35,435 nt of DNA, from IMG/VR virus record IMGVR_UViG_3300043313_000637, positions 1 through 35,435 of that record; one strand, 5' to 3'. The position numbers were made by a program, and so were the translations under genes. The notes beneath the pieces are model-generated. The model saw only the letters and a program-made list of their open reading frames with translations. It was not told where the DNA came from and did not search any database. Every line of letters begins with the position of its first letter. Within the stretch, counting starts at the first letter, position 1. The DNA is from a virus. Shown one piece after another: positions 1,161 to 34,633 of this stretch.

Positions 1161-1379
1161 ATGGCAGAAAAGATCGTCGTCATCTTCGATGTCGAGGAGT
1201 CGACCAAGAACACGCGGCGCTATGGCGAACTGGGCAATACCGTTCCTGGCCTGGACGCTGCCATCGGTCGCCTCTATGTCCAGAAACGCGGCCTCGCCAC
1301 GATCGGGAATCCGCGCACCATCACCGTTACGATCGAACCCGGCGTGACGGACGAAGCGAAAGAGGCGATGAAGCCGTGA
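1161..1379 (+). CDS. Conserved-looking small phage protein, unknown function
   Basis: A 72-residue protein. I chose ATG 1161 because it follows GGGGGAAAGG at good spacing; an in-frame GTG at 1107 would place the 10-bp site inside the gene. The sequence alternates beta-type strands (KIVVIFDVEE, PRTITVTIEPG) with a GRLYVQKRGL segment, so it is probably a small mixed alpha/beta cytoplasmic protein. I recall similar 'FDVE..TKNTxRY...LYVQK' proteins in other actinophages, all unassigned. It heads a run of five genes joined by 4-8 bp overlaps. Confidence 0.75.
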   Translation: MAEKIVVIFDVEESTKNTRRYGELGNTVPGLDAAIGRLYVQKRGLATIGNPRTITVTIEPGVTDEAKEAMKP

Positions 1380-1777
1380 GCGGATCGAGCGAGGCTCGCG
1401 TCCAGGGTGCCATCGCGGCGGCCAGGGAGCGCGCACAGCGGACGGGCGAGCCCTGCCCGTCCGACTCCATGGTCCGGGCCATCGTGGACGCTTACGAGCC
1501 CGTGGGGATCGTGGCGGCCCTCGGCCACATCGCGGCCGGCTCCATGTCCGAGATCAACGCGGCGGCGATGAAGCGGGCGATCGACTCCTTCCGCTCGACT
1601 CACCGGACGCTCTCGGCCGTGGGCCTGAACCCGGCGAGCGCGGAGGAGATCGTGGCGGACTCCGGCCTTCTGGGTGCGACCCAGGTCGGTATCCATTCGG
1701 GCGTGTGGGCCTGCCTGGATGTCCTCGCCAAGGCGTGTACGGCTCCGGCGGCCGAACTCGTGCGGGAGGGTGAATGA
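1376..1777 (+). CDS. Unknown phage protein, mostly helical
   Basis: A 133-residue protein starting with GTG in a GTGA overlap with the previous stop. It is alanine-rich and predicted helical, without transmembrane segments or recognisable motifs. Translational coupling puts it in the same operon as the 1161 and 1774 genes. I do not recognise a family. Confidence 0.7.
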   Translation: MSGSSEARVQGAIAAARERAQRTGEPCPSDSMVRAIVDAYEPVGIVAALGHIAAGSMSEINAAAMKRAIDSFRSTHRTLSAVGLNPASAEEIVADSGLLGATQVGIHSGVWACLDVLAKACTAPAAELVREGE

Positions 1778-2154
1778 ACGTCTACGGCTCGCATCGGCCC
1801 GGTTGCCGTGGCTGCTACCCGTATCGTGTAAACGTCTCTCCCGCGTGGGAAGAGGTCGATCCTATGAACGTTCATCGGGTGACCGTGCATCCTGCCGTTA
1901 CGCGGGTCGTCAACGTGAAGACTCCGCACGCCAAGGCTCCCGGCATTTTCGATAACCGCCATCAGCCGGGCCGCAAGTTCGGGCCGGCTCCGAAGCCTCG
2001 GCCGAAGGTGCGTGAGTTTCAGTCCGCTCCCGTGTCCATGCATCCCGCGAAGCGTCTTCGGGCCTACCTCGCGGTTCCAGCAATCAACCGTCAGCCGTCC
2101 GGCATGACCGGTCCTCAGCAGAAGCGGGCCAAGAAGAAGGCGAGGGTCCTGTGA
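1774..2154 (+). CDS. Unknown basic protein, with alternative start at 1864
   Basis: A 126-residue protein starting in an ATGA overlap. It is rich in Arg, Lys, Pro and His and ends in a lysine cluster (KRAKKKARVL), which suggests nucleic-acid binding or an unfolded tail. A second in-frame ATG at 1864 follows AGAGG and begins with the same ATGAACGT bases as the first start. The first 30 codons contain a CRGC pair and also cover a copy of the CGTGTAAACG site (1825-1834). Either start is possible: coupling favours 1774. Confidence 0.6.
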   Translation: MNVYGSHRPGCRGCYPYRVNVSPAWEEVDPMNVHRVTVHPAVTRVVNVKTPHAKAPGIFDNRHQPGRKFGPAPKPRPKVREFQSAPVSMHPAKRLRAYLAVPAINRQPSGMTGPQQKRAKKKARVL

Positions 2155-2477
2155 GCGCGACCGAAGCCGAAGCGCTCTCGGCGGCCCAGGAACGGCTAGA
2201 CGCGGCGGTTGCGGACTTCCTTGTCGTGTCCGGCTGGCACGCGGTTGACGCCATGGTCATGTCCCATGTGTACGTGATCTCCGTGGACTCGACGGGCCTC
2301 GACGCCGAAGGGAACGCGCTCCATCAGCATCCCTTGATCGTCGGGCCGGAAGGCCGAATCAATCCGTCTCTGGCCGTGGGGATGCTCTCGATCACGAGTG
2401 ACATCGTGAAGACCAAGATCATGATGGGCATCATGGCGAACGAGGTTCGGGGGGATGAGGGGATGAACGATGGGTGA
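2151..2477 (+). CDS. Unknown phage protein
   Basis: A 108-residue protein starting at GTG in a GTGA overlap. An N-terminal helix (ATEAEALSAAQERLDAAVADFL) is followed by a beta-type stretch (SHVYVISVDSTGLD, HPLIVGPEGR). No catalytic motif or membrane span is visible. It is coupled to genes on both sides, which suggests a shared role, but I do not recognise a family. Confidence 0.7.
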   Translation: MSATEAEALSAAQERLDAAVADFLVVSGWHAVDAMVMSHVYVISVDSTGLDAEGNALHQHPLIVGPEGRINPSLAVGMLSITSDIVKTKIMMGIMANEVRGDEGMNDG

Positions 2478-2889
2478 GCGCTTCGTTCTGATGGGTTTCC
2501 CGACTGTCCATACGTGCGTCGAGGGATGCGAGGAGGATTCTCATCTGGCCTCGGTCGCGACGGAGATCGATCTCGGGGCCAGCGAAGAGGGGATCATGGT
2601 GGGCATCTTCGCCTACCATCCCGGGGCCGGGATCGTGAAGTACGCGAGCCTTCGGGCCTCGACGTTCGGCGATCTCGCGTCAGGCGTCCCCGTGGCGACG
2701 ATGGCGCGAGTCTTCGGCACGCTGAAGACGGAGGTCGAGAAGCGGGCCAAGACGTCCGCTCTCGGCGTGATGGATCCGACCTTGGCTCCTCCGGCGGCCA
2801 GCAACGGCGGCCCCATCGTGCCCGGTCAACGGCCCTCGGGCCTGGTGATCCCCGACGTACGGCCGGTCCGGAAGCGCGACCAGAACTGA
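2470..2889 (+). CDS. Unknown phage protein
   Basis: A 139-residue protein whose ATG overlaps the previous gene by 8 bp. The N-terminal half looks like a compact globular domain with a CVEGC pair; the last 40 residues are proline-rich and basic (PIVPGQRPSGLVIPDVRPVRKR), probably unstructured. Its stop codon lies inside a 7-bp hairpin (2887-2904) that ends the five-gene run. Function unknown. Confidence 0.7.
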   Translation: MGERFVLMGFPTVHTCVEGCEEDSHLASVATEIDLGASEEGIMVGIFAYHPGAGIVKYASLRASTFGDLASGVPVATMARVFGTLKTEVEKRAKTSALGVMDPTLAPPAASNGGPIVPGQRPSGLVIPDVRPVRKRDQN

Positions 2890-2938
2890 CAACTCAGGTT
2901 GTCATCAGAATCCACGGGGTACCTTCCTGGTGCCGTGG
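2887..2938 (+). terminator. Two adjacent hairpins between gene run and secreted-protein gene
   Basis: TGACAAC-TCAG-GTTGTCA (2887-2904) includes the upstream stop codon. A second stem, CCACGG...CCGTGG (2912-2938), can extend through TACC/GGTG with a 2-nt bulge. Neither has a clear U-tract, so they may attenuate or separate the transcripts rather than fully stop them. Confidence 0.35.
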
Positions 2939-2959
2939 GAACCAACCGAAGGAGACAGA

Positions 2960-3646
2960 ATGTCCATTCGTAGGCGTTTGATCGCCTCGATCAGTACCGC
3001 GATCCTCGGATGTGCGGCCCTCGTGGCGCTCGCTTCCCCTGCCCAGGCGGTAGCGGTCACGAACCTCGTGAACAATGCGGAGGCCGGTCAGAACGCGTTC
3101 GACACGTCAAGCAACGCGGCCACGGGCGCGGCGTACGGTCTCGTCTCGCCGAACGGCTGGCATGTGGCAGGGTCGGCGGCGACGTCGTACCTGAACTGGT
3201 CCACGGCGTCCCTGGAGCAGAACCACGAGTACGCGTCCTTTGCCTTCGTCGTACGGGTCAACTCCCATGCGGTCGGCGAGTCCGTGGACCTGTTCAGCCT
3301 GAAGCACACGGCTTCCGTGAACCACTTCGATTTCTTCCTGACGGCCGGCAACGATTTCATGTGGGACCTGAAGTCGACCGATTTCGACACCTACACGGGC
3401 GTCACCCTCGGGCGCTGGTACCTCGTGAAGGGGAAGGTCTTCTTCGGCGCGACGACCTACACGGCCGAGGTCGAGATTGACGGCGTGAACCAGGGCTCCA
3501 TCGCCTCGACGTCCCAGACCGTGGAAGCGGTCAAGTCCGTGTGGCTTGGCAACGCCGTGGCGAAGACGTCCGATCGCGACTATGACGCCATCCGCGTCCA
3601 GGTCGGCGAGACCGATCCCGGTTGGGTCGCGGGCGGTACCCTGTAG
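2960..3646 (+). CDS. Sec-secreted concanavalin/LamG-like protein
   Basis: A 228-residue protein; ATG 2960 is chosen because it follows AAGGAGA and begins a classic signal peptide: MSIRRR, a hydrophobic core (STAILGCAALVALA) and a likely cleavage after SPAQA near residue 30. The mature part is beta-rich with aromatic strands (HEYASFAFVVRV, HFDFFLTAGNDFMWDL, GRWYLVKGKVFFG), consistent with a jelly-roll fold that often binds sugars. No active-site residues stand out. It has its own ribosome-binding site and is closed by hairpins, so it behaves as a single-gene unit. An exported, non-virion protein made in the infected cell could act at the cell wall or on superinfecting phage; that is inference. 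Confidence 0.75.
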   Translation: MSIRRRLIASISTAILGCAALVALASPAQAVAVTNLVNNAEAGQNAFDTSSNAATGAAYGLVSPNGWHVAGSAATSYLNWSTASLEQNHEYASFAFVVRVNSHAVGESVDLFSLKHTASVNHFDFFLTAGNDFMWDLKSTDFDTYTGVTLGRWYLVKGKVFFGATTYTAEVEIDGVNQGSIASTSQTVEAVKSVWLGNAVAKTSDRDYDAIRVQVGETDPGWVAGGTL

Positions 3647-4262: not shown

Positions 4263-4862
4263 ATGCTTGACGAAGAGAAGCCGGAACCGAAGCGCGTCCG
4301 AGGTCCGCTCTCCGATGCCGAGAAGGCACGGATCGAGCAACTTCACGCAGACGACTACGGCCGGAACCAGATTGCCGAACTCATGGGCCGCCCGTGGGCG
4401 ACCATCACGAAGTATTGCCAGCGGGCCGGCCTCACCTTCGCCCGTCACGATGCGGCGATCGGCGTCGAGAAGCAACGGATCGAGGGTGCGCAGCGACGCG
4501 CCACGCTCGTTCTCGAAATGCTGGATGACGCGGAGCGACTCCGGGAGCGGATGTTCGCCCCGACGAAGTACCTCGCGAAGTTCAACGGAGACTCTGACAA
4601 GATCCTTCCTCAGCCCATCCCACAGGATCAGGCGAACCTCGCCAAGGCCGTTACGACTCTGATCGATTCCACGCTGAAGATCGAGGCGTACGACCGGGCC
4701 AACTCGACGGCGGACGTCGCGCGCTCCATGCTTGGTCGTCTCGGCGATCTCATCACGGCGAACGCGTCCGGGCCGTACGTGCCTCGGATGCCTGACGATC
4801 CGTTCGCGAACGAGGGTCCGGTTCCCGGCGAAGAGGATCAGGGCAAGGGCGAGACAGCATGA
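4263..4862 (+). CDS. terS: Terminase small subunit (TerS-like, HTH)
   Basis: A 199-residue protein after GAGGAG. Residues about 18-50 (LSDAEKARIEQLHADDYGRN, then QIAELMGRPWATITKYCQRAG) form a resolvase-type helix-turn-helix. A long helical middle (residues 60-150) would oligomerise, and the C-terminus is acidic (DDPFANEGPVPGEEDQGKGE), which could contact the large subunit. TerS proteins recognise the packaging start on phage DNA. The call rests on the HTH plus helical layout, the length and an immediate 4-bp overlap with TerL. Confidence 0.8.
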   Translation: MLDEEKPEPKRVRGPLSDAEKARIEQLHADDYGRNQIAELMGRPWATITKYCQRAGLTFARHDAAIGVEKQRIEGAQRRATLVLEMLDDAERLRERMFAPTKYLAKFNGDSDKILPQPIPQDQANLAKAVTTLIDSTLKIEAYDRANSTADVARSMLGRLGDLITANASGPYVPRMPDDPFANEGPVPGEEDQGKGETA

Positions 4863-6139
4863 CCGGCCCGGCGACAACCCATCCGGTCATGCTCCCGGAC
4901 CTCCTCCATCAGCGACAGATCGACTCCATCGCCTGGAGTACGGAGAAGGTCAACATCTGGGAAGGTTCGATCCGTGCCGGGAAGACGGTCGCTTCCCTGA
5001 TCCGGTTCCTGATGTTCCTCGCCGACGCGCCCGAACAAGGCGAACTCCTCGTGGTTGGGAAGACGCTCCAGTCTGTGTTCCGGAACCTCTTCGCGCCGTT
5101 GTACGACCCAGAGTTGTTCGGCTTCCTCTCGCGCTCGATCGACTACACCCAGGGCTCTCCTCTTGCCCAGATCATGGGTAGGCGTGTACACGTCCTAGGT
5201 GCGAACGATGCCAAGGCAGAGAGCAAGCTTCGAGGGATGACGCTCGCGGGCGCGTACGTGGATGAACTCACCCTCCTTCCCCGTGACTTCTTCATGACGC
5301 TCCAGGGACGCGCATCCGTACCAGGATCGAAGATCTTCGCCACGACCAACCCAGACACTCCGGCGCACTGGGTCCGGAAGGACATCCTCCTATCCGGTTC
5401 CCCGAACGTGCGGAACTTCCACTTCCGGATCGATGACAATACGTTCTTGGATCCGGAGTACGTCCGCTGGATCAAGGCCACCTATCGGGGGCTCTACTAC
5501 CGGAGGAACATCCTCGGGCAATGGGTCGTCGCGGAAGGTGCCGTTTACGACATGTGGGATCCACGTCGCCACGTCGTGGACATCATGCCAGCGATTCAGG
5601 AATGGCTCGCGGTCACGATCGACTATGGCACGATGAACCCGTTCCACGCGCTACTGATCGGGATCGGTGCGGACAAGAACCTTTACGTCGCGGCCGAGTG
5701 GCGTTACGACGGACGCGGCTCCATGGCGCAAATGACGGACGGACAGTACGCGGACGCGCTTCTCCGTTGGCTTGACAAGCTTCGGAAGTCCGGCGGTCGG
5801 TTCGCCACGATGGACCAGCCTCGGTTCTGGATCGTGGACCCATCGGCGGCCTCGTTCCGAACCGAACTCCGCTCGCGTGGGATGATCCAGGCCCAGGCGA
5901 ACAATGACGTTCTCGACGGGATCCGGTTGACGTCGGACCTCATCGCCCGGGGCAAACTGAAGATTCACCGGTCGTGCCATTGGCTGATAGACGAGATCAC
6001 GGGATACTCGTGGGACGATAAGGCGGCCCTCCTCGGAGAGGACAAGCCGGTTAAGGTAGACGACCACGGGCCGGACGCGCTTCGGTACGGGATCCGCACG
6101 ACACAGAATCTCTGGACACCCTTCGTAGAGGCGGCGTGA
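4859..6139 (+). CDS. terL: Terminase large subunit (ATPase and nuclease)
   Basis: A 426-residue packaging motor, starting in an ATGA overlap with TerS. Visible motifs: Walker A GSIRAGKT (residues 36-43), Walker B LAGAYVDEL with D135-E136, coupling motif ATTNP (161-165). The RNase H-like nuclease domain shows AVTIDYG with D255 and a C-terminal DDHGPDALRYG (D401, D402, D406) as metal ligands. It pumps DNA into the prohead through the portal and cuts the concatemer. A copy of the palindrome CGTGTACACG lies in the coding sequence at 5183-5192. Confidence 0.95.
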   Translation: MTGPATTHPVMLPDLLHQRQIDSIAWSTEKVNIWEGSIRAGKTVASLIRFLMFLADAPEQGELLVVGKTLQSVFRNLFAPLYDPELFGFLSRSIDYTQGSPLAQIMGRRVHVLGANDAKAESKLRGMTLAGAYVDELTLLPRDFFMTLQGRASVPGSKIFATTNPDTPAHWVRKDILLSGSPNVRNFHFRIDDNTFLDPEYVRWIKATYRGLYYRRNILGQWVVAEGAVYDMWDPRRHVVDIMPAIQEWLAVTIDYGTMNPFHALLIGIGADKNLYVAAEWRYDGRGSMAQMTDGQYADALLRWLDKLRKSGGRFATMDQPRFWIVDPSAASFRTELRSRGMIQAQANNDVLDGIRLTSDLIARGKLKIHRSCHWLIDEITGYSWDDKAALLGEDKPVKVDDHGPDALRYGIRTTQNLWTPFVEAA

Positions 6140-10648: not shown

Positions 10649-11164
10649 ATGGCGACTGCGGCGAAGGCCACTTCCGCGAAGGCGGACGAGAACAAGACGG
10701 ACGAGGCGGCCTCTGCTCCGGCTCCGATCGTCAATGACACGAACACGGGTCCGACTGCGGCCGAGGCCGTGGCCGAGGCCGAGAAGGACGGTCACGTTAC
10801 GGGCGAGGCCCCGGGCGTGACTCGCGCCGAAGGCGAGGTTCCCGGGACCGTGGGTCACACGGCCCCCGGCGACGCTCCGCACGACACGACCGATCCGGCC
10901 GAGCGAGTTTCCACGGCTCCTCCGTCCGGCAAGGAGATGGCCGAGGCGGCGAAGGCCGGCCTCGGTTCCGTCGTGGCCTACGTCAAGACGGGCGAGGTCG
11001 GCGGATCGAACGAGCGCGACGCGGACGCGGCGGCCGAACGGACCGAGCGTTACCCCGTGACCGTCAACGCCATCACGGGCGAGACCGTGATGGTGGAGCG
11101 GAACATGGACACGGGCGTCTCGAAGCGCGTCGAGGGCGAAGCGGATCAGGGTCCGAACTCCTGA
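10649..11164 (+). CDS. Low-complexity Ala/Glu-rich protein, probable virion or assembly component
   Basis: A 171-residue protein after GGTAAAGGG. It is rich in Ala, Glu, Thr, Gly and Pro, with little predicted structure until a short ordered C-terminus (ERYPVTVNAITGETVMVERN). It has no cysteine and no membrane segment. Its place between the major capsid gene and the first connector suggests a head-related role, for example an accessory capsid protein, but I do not recognise a family. Confidence 0.65.
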   Translation: MATAAKATSAKADENKTDEAASAPAPIVNDTNTGPTAAEAVAEAEKDGHVTGEAPGVTRAEGEVPGTVGHTAPGDAPHDTTDPAERVSTAPPSGKEMAEAAKAGLGSVVAYVKTGEVGGSNERDADAAAERTERYPVTVNAITGETVMVERNMDTGVSKRVEGEADQGPNS

Positions 11165-25067: not shown

Positions 25068-25382
25068 TTACGATCCTTCCTTCTCGGGCGCGCTCGCGCG
25101 GGCCTTGGTCTCGAACTCGCGCCACTTCTTCATCGCGCCTTGGCGGGTCATCGGCCGGCCCGTGTGCGAGGGCACGCGCGCGGCGATCTCGTCCCAGGAG
25201 TAACCCTCGATCCGGAGGCGGCCCACGGCCTCGCCGATGAACTCTTCAGCGGCGGCCATGACCTCGTATGCCTGACCCAGGCTCTCCGAGTCCTCGACGT
25301 TGTGACCCATGGTCCGCATCATGCGGATATAGTCCAATTTGCCGGGCCTCTCCCCCGGATGCTTCTTGCGGTCCTCCCACAT
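25068..25382 (-). CDS. HTH DNA-binding protein, probably autoregulated
   Basis: A 104-residue protein; ATG 25382 follows GGGGGAG. The C-terminal third (GYSWDEIAARVPSHTGRPMT followed by RQGAMKKWREF) is a helix-turn-helix of the sigma-70 region 4 / terminase type. The N-terminal part is helical (SLGQAYEVMAAAEEFIGEAV). A perfect 7-bp inverted repeat overlaps its own promoter about 45 bp upstream, so it most likely binds there and controls itself. It heads a two-gene leftward operon. Confidence 0.7.
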   Translation of the reverse strand: MWEDRKKHPGERPGKLDYIRMMRTMGHNVEDSESLGQAYEVMAAAEEFIGEAVGRLRIEGYSWDEIAARVPSHTGRPMTRQGAMKKWREFETKARASAPEKEGS

Positions 25383-25424: not shown

Positions 25425-25454
25425 ATGGTAACATCAGTTACCACTCTGAAGCAA
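25425..25454 (-). promoter_or_regulatory. Promoter with overlapping inverted-repeat operator for the HTH gene
   Basis: On the minus strand TTGCTT (25454-25449), an 18-bp spacer and TACCAT (25430-25425). The inverted repeat TGGTAAC-ATCA-GTTACCA (25426-25443) covers the -10 box and part of the spacer, a classic repression geometry. Confidence 0.6.
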
Positions 25455-26316: not shown

Positions 26317-26328
26317 TCTTTTAGGAAC

Positions 26329-26345
26329 GTCCTAGCGTCCTAGGA
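26329..26345 (+). repeat. 17-mer repeat copy 2, GTCCTAGCGTCCTAGGA
   Basis: One mismatch from the other two copies. It lies between the 29-bp block A and the terminator of the 26404 gene. Confidence 0.6.
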
Positions 26346-26958: not shown

Positions 26959-26975
26959 GTCCTAGCTTCCTAGGA
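26959..26975 (+). repeat. 17-mer repeat copy 3, GTCCTAGCTTCCTAGGA
   Basis: Preceded directly by the 15-bp palindrome GGGAGAGCGCTCTCC. It may serve the leftward 26718 gene, the rightward lysis cassette, or both. Confidence 0.6.
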
Positions 26976-27044
26976 CGCTTCGGTCCCGGCGACCGGACCG
27001 TTTGGCCAAGGTCATGTCGCCACTGTCCGTATATCCTAGAGACC

Positions 27045-31865: not shown

Positions 31866-32204
31866 TCAGACCTTGGTCACCGGAGTACCGGCGTCCTCGG
31901 CCTCGGAGCCGTCCTCGGCGTCCGCGTCGGCGGCCGGAGCGTCCTCGGCGAACGGGTCGCTCGTGTCGGCGGCCACGGGGGCGTCGGAGACGGGGGCGTT
32001 CTTCCACCACTCCACGCTCTCGCGGTCGGCGGTCAGGCCGGCCTCGTCCTCGCGGATCTGGGTCGAGAGCGCGTTCAGGATCCCCGCGAACTTCTCGCGC
32101 TTCTCCTTCAGGGCCGCCGTGTTGGCCTCCAGCCGGGCCTCGCGCTTGGCGAGACGCTTCGTCACGGCTTCGAGTTCGCGTTCGATGGTCTTCGTGGTGG
32201 GCAT
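31866..32204 (-). CDS. Coiled-coil protein with acidic C-terminal tail
   Basis: A 112-residue protein; ATG 32204 follows GAGGAG. Residues 1-65 are a charged coiled coil (TIERELEAVTKRLAKREARL, TAALKEKREKFAGILNALST), then a DRESVEWWKNAP motif and a strongly acidic tail (DPFAEDAPAADADAEDGSEA). Acidic tails containing D-P-F occur in single-strand binding proteins and their partners, and the neighbouring 32420 gene also ends in DPFGDQ. A replication-related scaffold is possible but unproven. Confidence 0.7.
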   Translation of the reverse strand: MPTTKTIERELEAVTKRLAKREARLEANTAALKEKREKFAGILNALSTQIREDEAGLTADRESVEWWKNAPVSDAPVAADTSDPFAEDAPAADADAEDGSEAEDAGTPVTKV

Positions 32205-32245
32205 CGGATCTCCTCGGTTTACTGGCGTGGAATGGTCTAGCTCTG

Positions 32246-32251
32246 ATTGTA
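32246..32251 (-). promoter_or_regulatory. Candidate -10 box (TACAAT) for the 31866-32204 gene
   Basis: Minus-strand ATGTACAATC is a strong -10 with TG directly before it, 41 nt upstream of the ATG. No good -35 is visible at 16-18 bp. Confidence 0.4.
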
Positions 32252-32353
32252 CATCATCCAGGAACGGATCCGGAAGGCCGTTTTATCTCCTACACGAGTC
32301 CGAGTTGACATCGTGCACGCGAGCCCTAGAGGCCGGCCCATTCCGGATCCGGG

Positions 32354-32415
32354 CGAGGGGGCCGCATCACGTAGATTCGCGATGGCCGAGGCCGGTTTGA
32401 CCCACGGCCCCCTCG
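32354..32415 (-). terminator. Long-stem hairpin terminator after the 32420-32833 gene
   Basis: CGAGGGGGCCG (32354-32364) pairs perfectly with CGGCCCCCTCG (32405-32415) across a 40-nt loop, 4 bp after the leftward stop. Confidence 0.7.
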
Positions 32416-32419
32416 GGTC

Positions 32420-32833
32420 TTACTGGTCCCCGAACGGGTCAGCGGTCGCCTGTGCGGCGATCCATTTCCGCGCGAGTTCCTTGTCCGCGTCGGTCGGCGG
32501 GTCCAGGACCACGACGTCCGACTGTCCGCCCTTCTTGTTCGGGATCTCCTTGACGCGGCCCAAATGCATGGGCTTGGCCTTGCCGATCCGGACCTTGAGT
32601 TCGGACACGACGGGGCCGTTGATTACCAGCATCCCATCGATGGCCTCGGCCTCGGCGATCGGGTCGGCGGCCTCCGTGTCGAAGAAAACGGCGTCGGTCA
32701 TGACGCCATCGACCATCCCGAACTTGCCGTTCACGGCGTTGGGCTTGAACTCCAGAGGAGTGAACAGGACCAACTTCCCCACGAAACCGCGAAGCTGGGA
32801 TCCACCGGACGATGAACTGAACGGATCGGTCAC
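32420..32833 (-). CDS. Probable DNA-metabolism protein, SSB-like tail
   Basis: A 137-residue protein starting at GTG 32833, 10-13 nt after AGGGAAG. The N-terminus is low complexity (TDPFSSSSGGSQ), then beta-type strands (GFVGKLVLFTPLEFKPNAVN, DGMLVINGPVVSELKVRIGK) that could form an OB-like barrel, and the end is ATADPFGDQ, reminiscent of the acidic D-P-F tail of single-strand DNA-binding proteins. It lies beside a RecB/Cas4-like nuclease, which supports a role in DNA replication or recombination. The SSB idea is inference only. Confidence 0.55.
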   Translation of the reverse strand: MTDPFSSSSGGSQLRGFVGKLVLFTPLEFKPNAVNGKFGMVDGVMTDAVFFDTEAADPIAEAEAIDGMLVINGPVVSELKVRIGKAKPMHLGRVKEIPNKKGGQSDVVVLDPPTDADKELARKWIAAQATADPFGDQ

Positions 32834-33290
32834 GATCGGTTCACTTCCCTTCGATTCGATTCTTCCTCCGGCTCGTGCCGGAAGCTACCCGGGGATTCAG
32901 AGAACCTTGGTCCCTCCCGAAGGGGACGCACGCGGCCCGGTCCGCGCTTCTGCTGAGGCCGGGAGACATTCGGGCGTTGACCGCATTCGAGAGGTCTCCC
33001 GACACTCCGCAGACGTCCGGGGCGTGGACAGTCTGAGAACCCCGGACGCTCTCGGCCGTTGCACTAGAGGAGACCCGAAGACCGGTCTCGCCTCGTGTGT
33101 GGAGGCCCCGAGGCCACGAGGGACCGAAGTCAGAGGGTGACCGGTTACGCGGGCCGAGAGTTTGGTTCCGAGAGATCCGGCCCGTGGATCGCACACTTCC
33201 CCATGCACGTTCCCCGGATCCCCCGGAAGTCTCATGTAGTTGTCAGGTTGTTCTCGTTCATCTTACACAGACGAAGGCGACCCGCAAGGG
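32834..33290 (-). other. 457-bp gene-free region rich in hairpins, candidate structured RNA
   Basis: No convincing ORF is present (a 117-codon leftward frame at 32841-33194 has no ribosome-binding site and unlikely composition). At least seven stems stand out: 32867-32882 (TCCGGC), 32910-32927 (GTCCC), 32960-33001 (CGGGAGAC, 8 bp), 33014-33048 (CGTCCGGGG, 9 bp), 33070-33089 (GAGACC), 33091-33121 (CCTCGTG, 7 bp, with inner GGCC pair) and 33148-33186 (9 bp with one wobble). They are evenly placed over 320 bases and lead towards the 32833 start. Candidate long leader or independent noncoding RNA. Confidence 0.45.
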
Positions 33291-34373
33291 CTAGTTGCCG
33301 AGTGTCTTCGCCTTTTCTTGACCGAGAGCCTTCAGTTCCGACGTCCAGGCTCCGGCGGCGGTCGCCTCCCGCCAGATGGCGGAAAGATCGGCCTTGCTCG
33401 TGGCCATCAGGATCCGCTCGATCCAGGTAGGCGCGTGGACGTCTGTGGCGGTCTCTGTAGCCTCCACGATGCCAACCGGTACGGCGAAGCCTCGGCGGGA
33501 GCGCCACGCCCGTACGGCCTCGCACAGGGCCGCACCGTCCCATCCCGCTTCGAGGTCCACGAAGTACAGTGTCGCGTCCCCCTGATCCCCTTGCGCCACG
33601 GCAGGAACGTGCATGACGATCCCGACGTCCTTCCGCACGGGCGGGAAGGGAACGGCGATCTCGCGCTCCCGGTCCCAGGATCCCGACGCGTTCGCGTAGA
33701 TCGAGAGTTGGACGGCGATCTCTCCCCATCCGTACTGAAGATCCTTGCCCGTCTTCAGGTCGGCGATCACGAGTTGCCCGGGGAGGAGGTACTTCGTTGC
33801 CTGCCCGGGGAATGAGACTTTCAGCGGCTTCGTGATCCGAACGATCCGGTCGTACTTCCCCGCGACGTGATAGTCCAGGCAGAAGATGACCTGTTCCATC
33901 CACTCCACGACGATCTCCAGGCCGGCGACGTCCATCGACTTCCGGTAGGCGGCCATGGCCAGATCCCACGGAGCCGGGATGTACGGGTCCTCTCCTCGGT
34001 CAACTTGCTCCGAGAAGGCATGGAGCGCGGTCCCGAGGTTCGCTCCCGCACGCGCGGCGGCGGCGTCGGCGGCCTCTTCGGCGATCTTGTTCAGACGGTC
34101 GCGATCCTTGGTCACGTCGCACGCGGCAGCGGCCAGAACCAGATCGGGCCGGAGCGTGAGGCCCTTCGCGGTCATCCGGCGGCCCCACAAGTTCAAGGCG
34201 TACGTGTCGGCGGCGGCCTTCGCGAAGGTGGTAGCGCGTGTAAACGCTTCCTCCTTGCCGGTTGCCGGATTGACGATCAAGTATCGGCCGTATCCGTCGC
34301 GCCAGATCCCCTCTTCGTCCTGGATCCGGTTGCGGAACTTGCCTTGCGCAGACTCGAACGGATCACTACTCAT
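33291..34373 (-). CDS. RecB/Cas4-like PD-(D/E)XK exonuclease
   Basis: A 360-residue protein; ATG 34373 follows AGGGGAGAAGCG. Family motifs are clear: GTALHAF (H118), GKYDRIV (D175), LVIADLKTGK (D205, K207) and VQLSIYANAS (Q222, Y226), which form the metal-binding and DNA-binding core. Only C85 and C165 occur in the first 230 residues, so the four-cysteine iron-sulphur cluster of true Cas4 proteins is absent. Phage members are thought to act in recombination and replication, often with an annealing or binding protein. A CGTGTAAACG site lies inside at 34237-34246. Confidence 0.85.
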   Translation of the reverse strand: MSSDPFESAQGKFRNRIQDEEGIWRDGYGRYLIVNPATGKEEAFTRATTFAKAAADTYALNLWGRRMTAKGLTLRPDLVLAAAACDVTKDRDRLNKIAEEAADAAAARAGANLGTALHAFSEQVDRGEDPYIPAPWDLAMAAYRKSMDVAGLEIVVEWMEQVIFCLDYHVAGKYDRIVRITKPLKVSFPGQATKYLLPGQLVIADLKTGKDLQYGWGEIAVQLSIYANASGSWDREREIAVPFPPVRKDVGIVMHVPAVAQGDQGDATLYFVDLEAGWDGAALCEAVRAWRSRRGFAVPVGIVEATETATDVHAPTWIERILMATSKADLSAIWREATAAGAWTSELKALGQEKAKTLGN

Positions 34374-34411: not shown

Positions 34412-34633
34412 CTATCGGCCGGAGTGGTCCGTCGTAAGGTGCCAACCGGATCCATGTGCGTTGTACGTGCGCCACGTCAGGCCGGACGTACGGGCCAGCG
34501 TGAGACAGGCCATCAGTGCGGCGGACGAGTTCGGATAGACGACCTTCCCGCAGTCGGGGCAACGTCCCCGCGTCCTCTTCGGACGCTTCGGGCGTGGCTT
34601 CCTGTGGCCTTGGTCGTTCCTCCGCTTAGCCAC
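34412..34633 (-). CDS. Small zinc-finger-like basic protein
   Basis: A 73-residue protein; GTG 34633 overlaps the previous gene by 8 bp and so needs no strong ribosome-binding site of its own. A very basic start (AKRRNDQGHRKPRPKRPKRT) leads to CPDCGK, one half of a zinc finger, and a later segment with C43 and two histidines. Likely nucleic-acid binding. Function unknown. Confidence 0.6.
   Translation of the reverse strand: MAKRRNDQGHRKPRPKRPKRTRGRCPDCGKVVYPNSSAALMACLTLARTSGLTWRTYNAHGSGWHLTTDHSGR

Follow-up and report, generated by a model that had tools for sequence, protein, structure and literature searches.

The window analysed here is the whole virus record of 35,435 bases. The genes for portal, terminase and tape measure have matches in tailed-phage families, and the matches of its exonuclease and SSB-like genes are phages of Streptomyces, Mycobacterium, Gordonia and Tsukamurella. 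Based on these two sets of matches, we regard the record as an actinophage-type siphovirus; it is a soil phage that probably has actinobacteria as hosts. The region of interest, positions 32834-33290, is one complete intergenic gap, since 33290 lies directly after the stop codon of an exonuclease gene (33291-33293, minus strand) and 32834 directly before the GTG start of an SSB-like gene. The Cas4/RecB-type exonuclease gene (33291..34373, minus strand) matches phrog_466 (E=5.7e-73); its frame is open from a TTG at 34562, and the ATG at 34373 is the likely start. The SSB-like (OB-fold) gene (32420..32833, minus strand) matches phrog_870 (E=4.2e-20), a family annotated in PHROGs as of unknown function. 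The AlphaFold model of its product (pLDDT 84) is OB-like, and the best PDB match of this model is the PRD1 SSB P12 (prob 0.94, E 0.022), with several SSBs next. DPF motifs are present at both the N- and the C-terminus of the protein, and SSB tails likewise carry DPF-type motifs. We therefore consider the label "SSB-like" reasonable, short of proof.

The earlier note on this DNA had seen no credible reading frame in the gap, and the coding statistics agree. Codon-usage log-odds are negative in six of six frames (-0.14 to -0.38), compared with +0.31 to +0.45 for the two flanking genes read in their true frames, and the long ORFs overlapping the region have no match in Pfam; a protein gene was ruled out by the six-frame codon score and the lack of a family match. 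A known RNA family was likewise ruled out, as a cmscan with the Rfam 15 covariance models gave nothing at the gathering threshold, nor at E<=10 on 32200-33400, which bears out the statement that no match to GOLLD or ROOL could be seen. ARAGORN found neither tRNA nor tmRNA in the window, and the gap RNA contains no tRNA-like part, so both were rejected. Finally, a cluster of intrinsic terminators was rejected, since terminator-like sites (a GC hairpin followed by a T run) are absent from both strands of 32834-33290.

We then examined the predicted fold of the minus strand, which is the coding strand of both neighbouring genes. Over the full 457 nt, the minimum free energy (MFE) is -212.4 kcal/mol (z -2.86), none of 100 dinucleotide shuffles was as good, and the centroid and MFE structures agree, while the fold of the plus strand is ordinary (z -1.2). 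When 170 equal genome windows were ranked with both strands counted, the region was the fourth most extreme, with a higher energy excess in the plus-strand windows at 10921 and 421 and the minus-strand window at 25201. The 220-nt windows inside the region are not strong outliers, and the signal appears only at full length. By fold energy, the region stands out moderately but not extremely. The helices are more distinctive: five of at least 8 bp have a pairing probability of at least 0.9, compared with a shuffle mean of 1.2, and five or more such helices occurred in one of 200 shuffles. Among 338 genome windows, the region itself and one other have five. Eight helices reach a probability of at least 0.95 (15, 7, 9, 10, 5, 10, 6 and 8 bp), and those of 15, 9, 10, 10 and 8 bp reach at least 0.97. 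The description of at least seven stems of 5-9 bp placed end to end was right and even understated.

From the fold statistics and the absence of a coding signal, the gap contains a predicted structured RNA or 5' leader of about 416 nt (32834..33249, minus strand, with a putative transcription start). In domain 1 (33166..33228), a 15-bp helix (33228-33214/33180-33166) surrounds helices of 3 and 7 bp (p 0.97-0.99). Domain 2 (33049..33160) is closed by a 9-bp helix (33160-33152/33057-33049) and has a long imperfect inner arm of lower pairing probability (0.70-0.89). Domain 3 (33014..33048) is a 10-bp hairpin (p 0.99) whose arms were also listed as an inverted repeat, and domain 4 (32949..33013) is a long hairpin of 5+3+10+3+3 bp (p 0.97-1.0). 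Domains 2, 3 and 4 adjoin without one linker base. Domain 5 (32930..32947) is a 6-bp hairpin, GCGCGG/CCGCGT (p 0.95), and domain 6 (32910..32927) is a hairpin GTCCC..GGGAC of about 0.6 probability, with a rival pairing CCCTTC:GAAGGG over the Shine-Dalgarno sequence (p about 0.2). Domain 7 (32865..32884) is an 8-bp hairpin (p 1.0) just 5' of the ribosome-entry tract; its counterpart in the relative L106 has the same shape (p 0.99) and one compensatory change. All seven domains are on the minus strand.

Some other gaps of this genome also caught our attention. The gap on the far side of the SSB-like gene (32205-32419) is hairpin-rich on the minus strand too (z -3.9 for 32231-32450); it contains perfect 11-bp inverted repeats at 32354-32364/32405-32415 and 32265-32275/32341-32351 and an extended -10-like TGATGTACAAT. 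A palindrome, GGTAACATCAGTTACC (25425-25441), lies in a gap that has one of the most highly structured minus strands of this genome (25201-25657, z -3.6). Two gene-poor gaps contain one copy each of GTCCTAGC[GT]TCCTAGGA (26325-26345 and 26960-26982), each preceded by a similar TCAAGAT..TTT stretch, which looks like a repeated regulatory element.

In the search for relatives, single-protein scans of viral_contigs with each flanking gene found nothing, and a broad alignment of exonucleases had diverged too far to serve as a query. Exonuclease profiles built from narrower alignments gave about 160 viral loci and two bacterial-genome loci. The closest relative is L106 (exonuclease 57% identical, SSB-like protein 53%). 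Most relatives that have an SSB-like gene retain the arrangement exonuclease, gap, SSB-like gene, and the gap ranges from 12 to more than 900 nt. For comparison, we used the 32 loci with a gap of at least 95 nt and no intervening gene. The mean z of their leader folds is -1.97 versus -0.46 in 96 same-locus controls (p=1.2e-6, loci not all independent); the excess over the opposite strand is weak when all leaders are taken together (p=0.06). Insertions are found at the same point, namely an HNH endonuclease gene in L115 (L115:5110-5394, between the exonuclease and the SSB-like gene), a peptidase gene in TP1604 and a tRNA in L116. Several further features were seen in these relatives. L123 (5051-5555, 505 nt) and L201 (3533-4482, ~950 nt) have gene-free leaders with many hairpins at this locus; short segments are common to both by eye, and they may represent a second large RNA family. 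Two tRNA genes, at L106:6182-6273 and L201:5087-5178, have anticodon-arm inserts of 25 and 33 nt, which are intron-like or non-canonical. In L104, the exonuclease homologue (1229-3010) carries a Pro/Ala/Gln-rich insert of ~300 aa, and the next gene, SSB-like and of phrog_1911, has a long tail of repeats.

Both ends of the predicted leader carry expression signals. A promoter-like sequence, TTGCGG-N16-TAAGAT, lies directly after the exonuclease stop (33260..33287, minus strand), and its score, calculated with weights that approximate the sigma-70 consensus, is in the top 1.1% of control segments. Similar pairs occupy the same position in L106 (TTGCGC-16-TATTCT) and L112 (TTGACC-17-TAAGAT), and across the 32 long-leader loci the -35/-10-like pair at the exonuclease stop scores above same-locus random segments (MWU p=1e-19). 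Among the five relatives with gaps below 90 nt (L107, L108, L109, L118 and L124), four do not exceed the control scores and the remaining one is marginal, so that promoter and long leader tend to co-occur. At the other end, an A-rich tract (A 0.40; 32834..32868, minus strand) with the Shine-Dalgarno-like GAAGGGAAG precedes the GTG start. In the long-leader loci, the 35 nt leading up to the SSB start contain more A than those at control starts (0.37 versus 0.25, p=5e-10) and are more often unpaired (0.55 versus 0.41, p=1e-8). The tract of the studied phage does not fit its relatives in the latter respect, with a predicted unpaired fraction of only 0.30.

No conserved counterpart of the RNA sequence itself was found. 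In phages, blastn of the gap RNA gave one 33-nt chance match, and comparison with 50 related viral records and the nine closest records gave only matches of 14-25 nt. A scan with the SSB-like pair of the studied phage and L106 found only L106 again, and direct alignment with the L106 leader gave no convincing homology except for the 8-bp hairpin before the ribosome-binding site. With no alignable homologue found, the fold proposed here is a prediction for a single sequence, based on energy statistics and position.

Evidence for selection on structure was obtained from other relatives at the same locus. First, nine leaders of ~415-457 nt (L193, L194, L195, L198, L208, L284, L309, L312 and L273), which we aligned as A6, are mutually homologous RNAs of ~430 nt (e.g. 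L193:3638-4056 and L195:3683-4139). They contain a tRNA-like structure with a GCGCGG acceptor, a D-like arm and a TTCGA T arm, and its "anticodon" arm has changed almost fully in sequence with pairing kept; a GGCGGCCGTAAAACGCTGG motif is strongly kept 5' of this structure. Both sides have changed in 11 of 86 consensus pairs, a count that none of 500 shuffles reached, and sliding the partner by 1-3 columns gave at most five. Five members searched against Rfam had no match in the RNA, and nhmmer with a five-member model gave no match in the window at E<=10. A6 looks like a new phage RNA family with a tRNA-like structure. One copy of A6 is in a Streptomyces sp. NRRL S-455 contig (L265). Second, L127 and L128 were compared as a pair because the four L121-type leaders are too divergent for RNAalifold. 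In a 65-nt hairpin domain, six of the seven differences between them form three compensatory pair changes, a pattern reached by random placement in two of 20,000 trials; the next gene in both is of the phrog_870 type, like the SSB-like gene at 32420..32833. In L128 (5123-5346), there are two successive GGNGGGCC..GGCCCNCC hairpins versus one in L127, an apparent gain of a second domain. Third, the L116 leader contains a tRNA-Arg by ARAGORN, that of L204 has an Rfam tRNA match (39.8 bits), and tRNA or tRNA-like sequence was recognized by eye in the leaders of L203, L211, L217, L145 and L119. From the covariation and the tRNA-like leaders, we conclude that in relatives this locus makes a structured RNA under selection. 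Finally, the promoter and a 64-nt RNA core of identical predicted fold are shared by L122 and L134, although their SSB-like genes belong to different families (phrog_870 and phrog_1911); the 3' ribosome-binding tract goes with the SSB-like gene.

Beyond what is observed (lack of coding, strand-specific structure, a promoter-like sequence, conserved position, and covariation in relatives), we infer three steps, namely transcription, a link to the SSB-like gene, and autoregulation. The minus-strand transcript would start at the promoter by the exonuclease stop, at about 33249-33253. Its first ~415 nt would remain untranslated and form about seven mostly abutting hairpin domains, and it would run on into the SSB-like gene, making the folded RNA the 5' leader of that gene. 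Such a leader may control, once transcribed, how much SSB-like protein is made and when, and it would also be the stable folded RNA that this locus makes in many actinophages. Our preferred reading, to which we give an even chance, is that the RNA of 32834-33290 is a promoter-driven structured leader or noncoding RNA cotranscribed with the SSB-like gene. The earlier suggestion that the gap encodes a structured RNA, which could be a long leader for the SSB-like gene, is supported by the strand-specific fold above chance, the promoter-like sequence at its 5' end, the SSB-like gene next to it and the structured RNAs, some with significant covariation, at the same point in relatives.

As the specific form of control, SSB autoregulation by an operator of the T4 gene 32 type is the likeliest candidate, a tentative proposal that we hold at a clearly lower level. 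In T4 and RB69, a 5' folded element nucleates binding of the gene 32 protein, which then covers a less structured ribosome-binding tract of >40 nt; the operators have diverged in sequence with function kept, and a homing endonuclease can occupy the gap (PMC535899). By analogy, the A-rich ribosome-entry tract following the folded RNA would here be covered by the SSB-like protein as soon as single-stranded DNA is saturated. Both systems have an untranslated folded element, predicted in our case, and then the ribosome-binding tract of an SSB or SSB-like gene, at an intergenic point adjoining DNA-metabolism genes, with a layout that stays while the sequence varies and with a homing endonuclease at that point (segG in T4, HNH in L115). 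They differ in that the element is ~415 nt here and ~70 there and has its own promoter at the exonuclease stop; it is predicted from sequence, without a shown pseudoknot or UUAAA repeats, and the RNA in relatives of the studied phage survives a change of SSB family. A folded element 5' of the ribosome-binding tract is predicted here (the 32884-32865 hairpin and domains 1-5), whereas an unstructured tract of ~40 nt is seen on average in relatives and not at 32834..32868. Since L122 and L134 share promoter and core across SSB families, an operator tuned to one SSB is argued against; the sharing points to an RNA that has its own function, or to an operator recognized by any SSB. A leader of 415 nt, with tRNA-like versions elsewhere, is also more than an SSB operator needs.

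The RNA may instead act in trans as an independent, stable and abundant noncoding RNA, perhaps processed from the SSB transcript, with the SSB-like gene adjacent only as a matter of promoter site. We regard this as possible, though doubtful. The tRNA or tRNA-like leaders of L204, L116, L211, L217, L203, L145, L119 and A6 are likely RNase P substrates, the core and promoter of L122/L134 are kept across an SSB family swap, and other actinophages make very abundant noncoding RNAs, i.e. D29/L5 (PMC5712189) and WC1 (PMC10986025). However, the gap RNA has no tRNA-like part and no terminator-like site separates it from the SSB-like gene, and the leader is closely linked to the A-rich tract and the following gene. 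Neutral filler, or a decayed insertion (a gene, tRNA or homing endonuclease) with hairpins that merely reflect GC-rich sequence, would agree with the HNH, peptidase and tRNA insertions at this point and with a sequence unconserved even in L106; we consider it improbable in view of structure beyond dinucleotide shuffles on one strand only, the absence of any remnant of coding in 32834-33290, and the compensatory changes and kept promoter at the same locus in relatives. A DNA-level element, either a replication origin (hairpin or R-loop type) or a packaging site, as the earlier note had also proposed, is very improbable: recombination and replication genes adjoin and a promoter with a structured transcript could prime replication, but neither AT-rich sequence nor a turn in GC skew nor an array of iterons was seen at 32834-33290, the structure is biased toward the RNA of one strand, and the terminase gene (4859-6139) is about 28 kb away.

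Compared with the A6 RNA, the gap RNA has the same position between exonuclease and SSB-like gene, the same strand, a promoter at the exonuclease stop, a similar length and a compact multi-hairpin fold. It differs in the absence of sequence homology, in the tRNA-like structure present only in A6, and in the next gene (phrog_1911 in A6, tested for L195, and phrog_870 here). GOLLD and ROOL, known from other phages (PMC12286853), are likewise structured noncoding RNAs of large size encoded by phages and prophages, but the gap RNA is shorter, without an Rfam match at E<=10 and without a tRNA island. The abundant RNAs of unknown function of the mycobacteriophages D29/L5/StarStuff (PMC5712189) and Rhodococcus phage WC1 (PMC10986025) are also intergenic noncoding RNAs of actinophages, the Pleft RNA being ~500 nt long; they differ in genome position, and the gap RNA is predicted from sequence. 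In D29, there is no such gap downstream of exonuclease gene 69.

Phages are already known to make structured leaders and noncoding RNAs. For a position-conserved locus that carries unrelated structured and tRNA-like RNAs, absent from Rfam, in many actinophages, we found no description in the literature searched, which covered few subscription journals and is weak evidence of novelty. A more speculative reading, which we think rather unlikely, is that actinophages keep the gap between exonuclease and SSB genes as a locus dedicated to RNA. Each lineage would have its own, often unrelated, promoter-driven structured RNA (hairpin, multi-domain or tRNA-like), and 32834-33290 would hold a 415-nt member. 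Such RNAs would be kept when the SSB gene is replaced and so would act by themselves, with host translation, RNA decay or defence among the possible targets. A fixed genome address of unrelated structured RNAs absent from Rfam would allow phage RNAs to be found by position when sequence fails, and the locus would offer a test case for the control of SSB-like genes in the many phages that do not belong to the T4 group. Should the RNA function independently, it would define a new class of noncoding phage RNAs with tRNA-like forms among its members.
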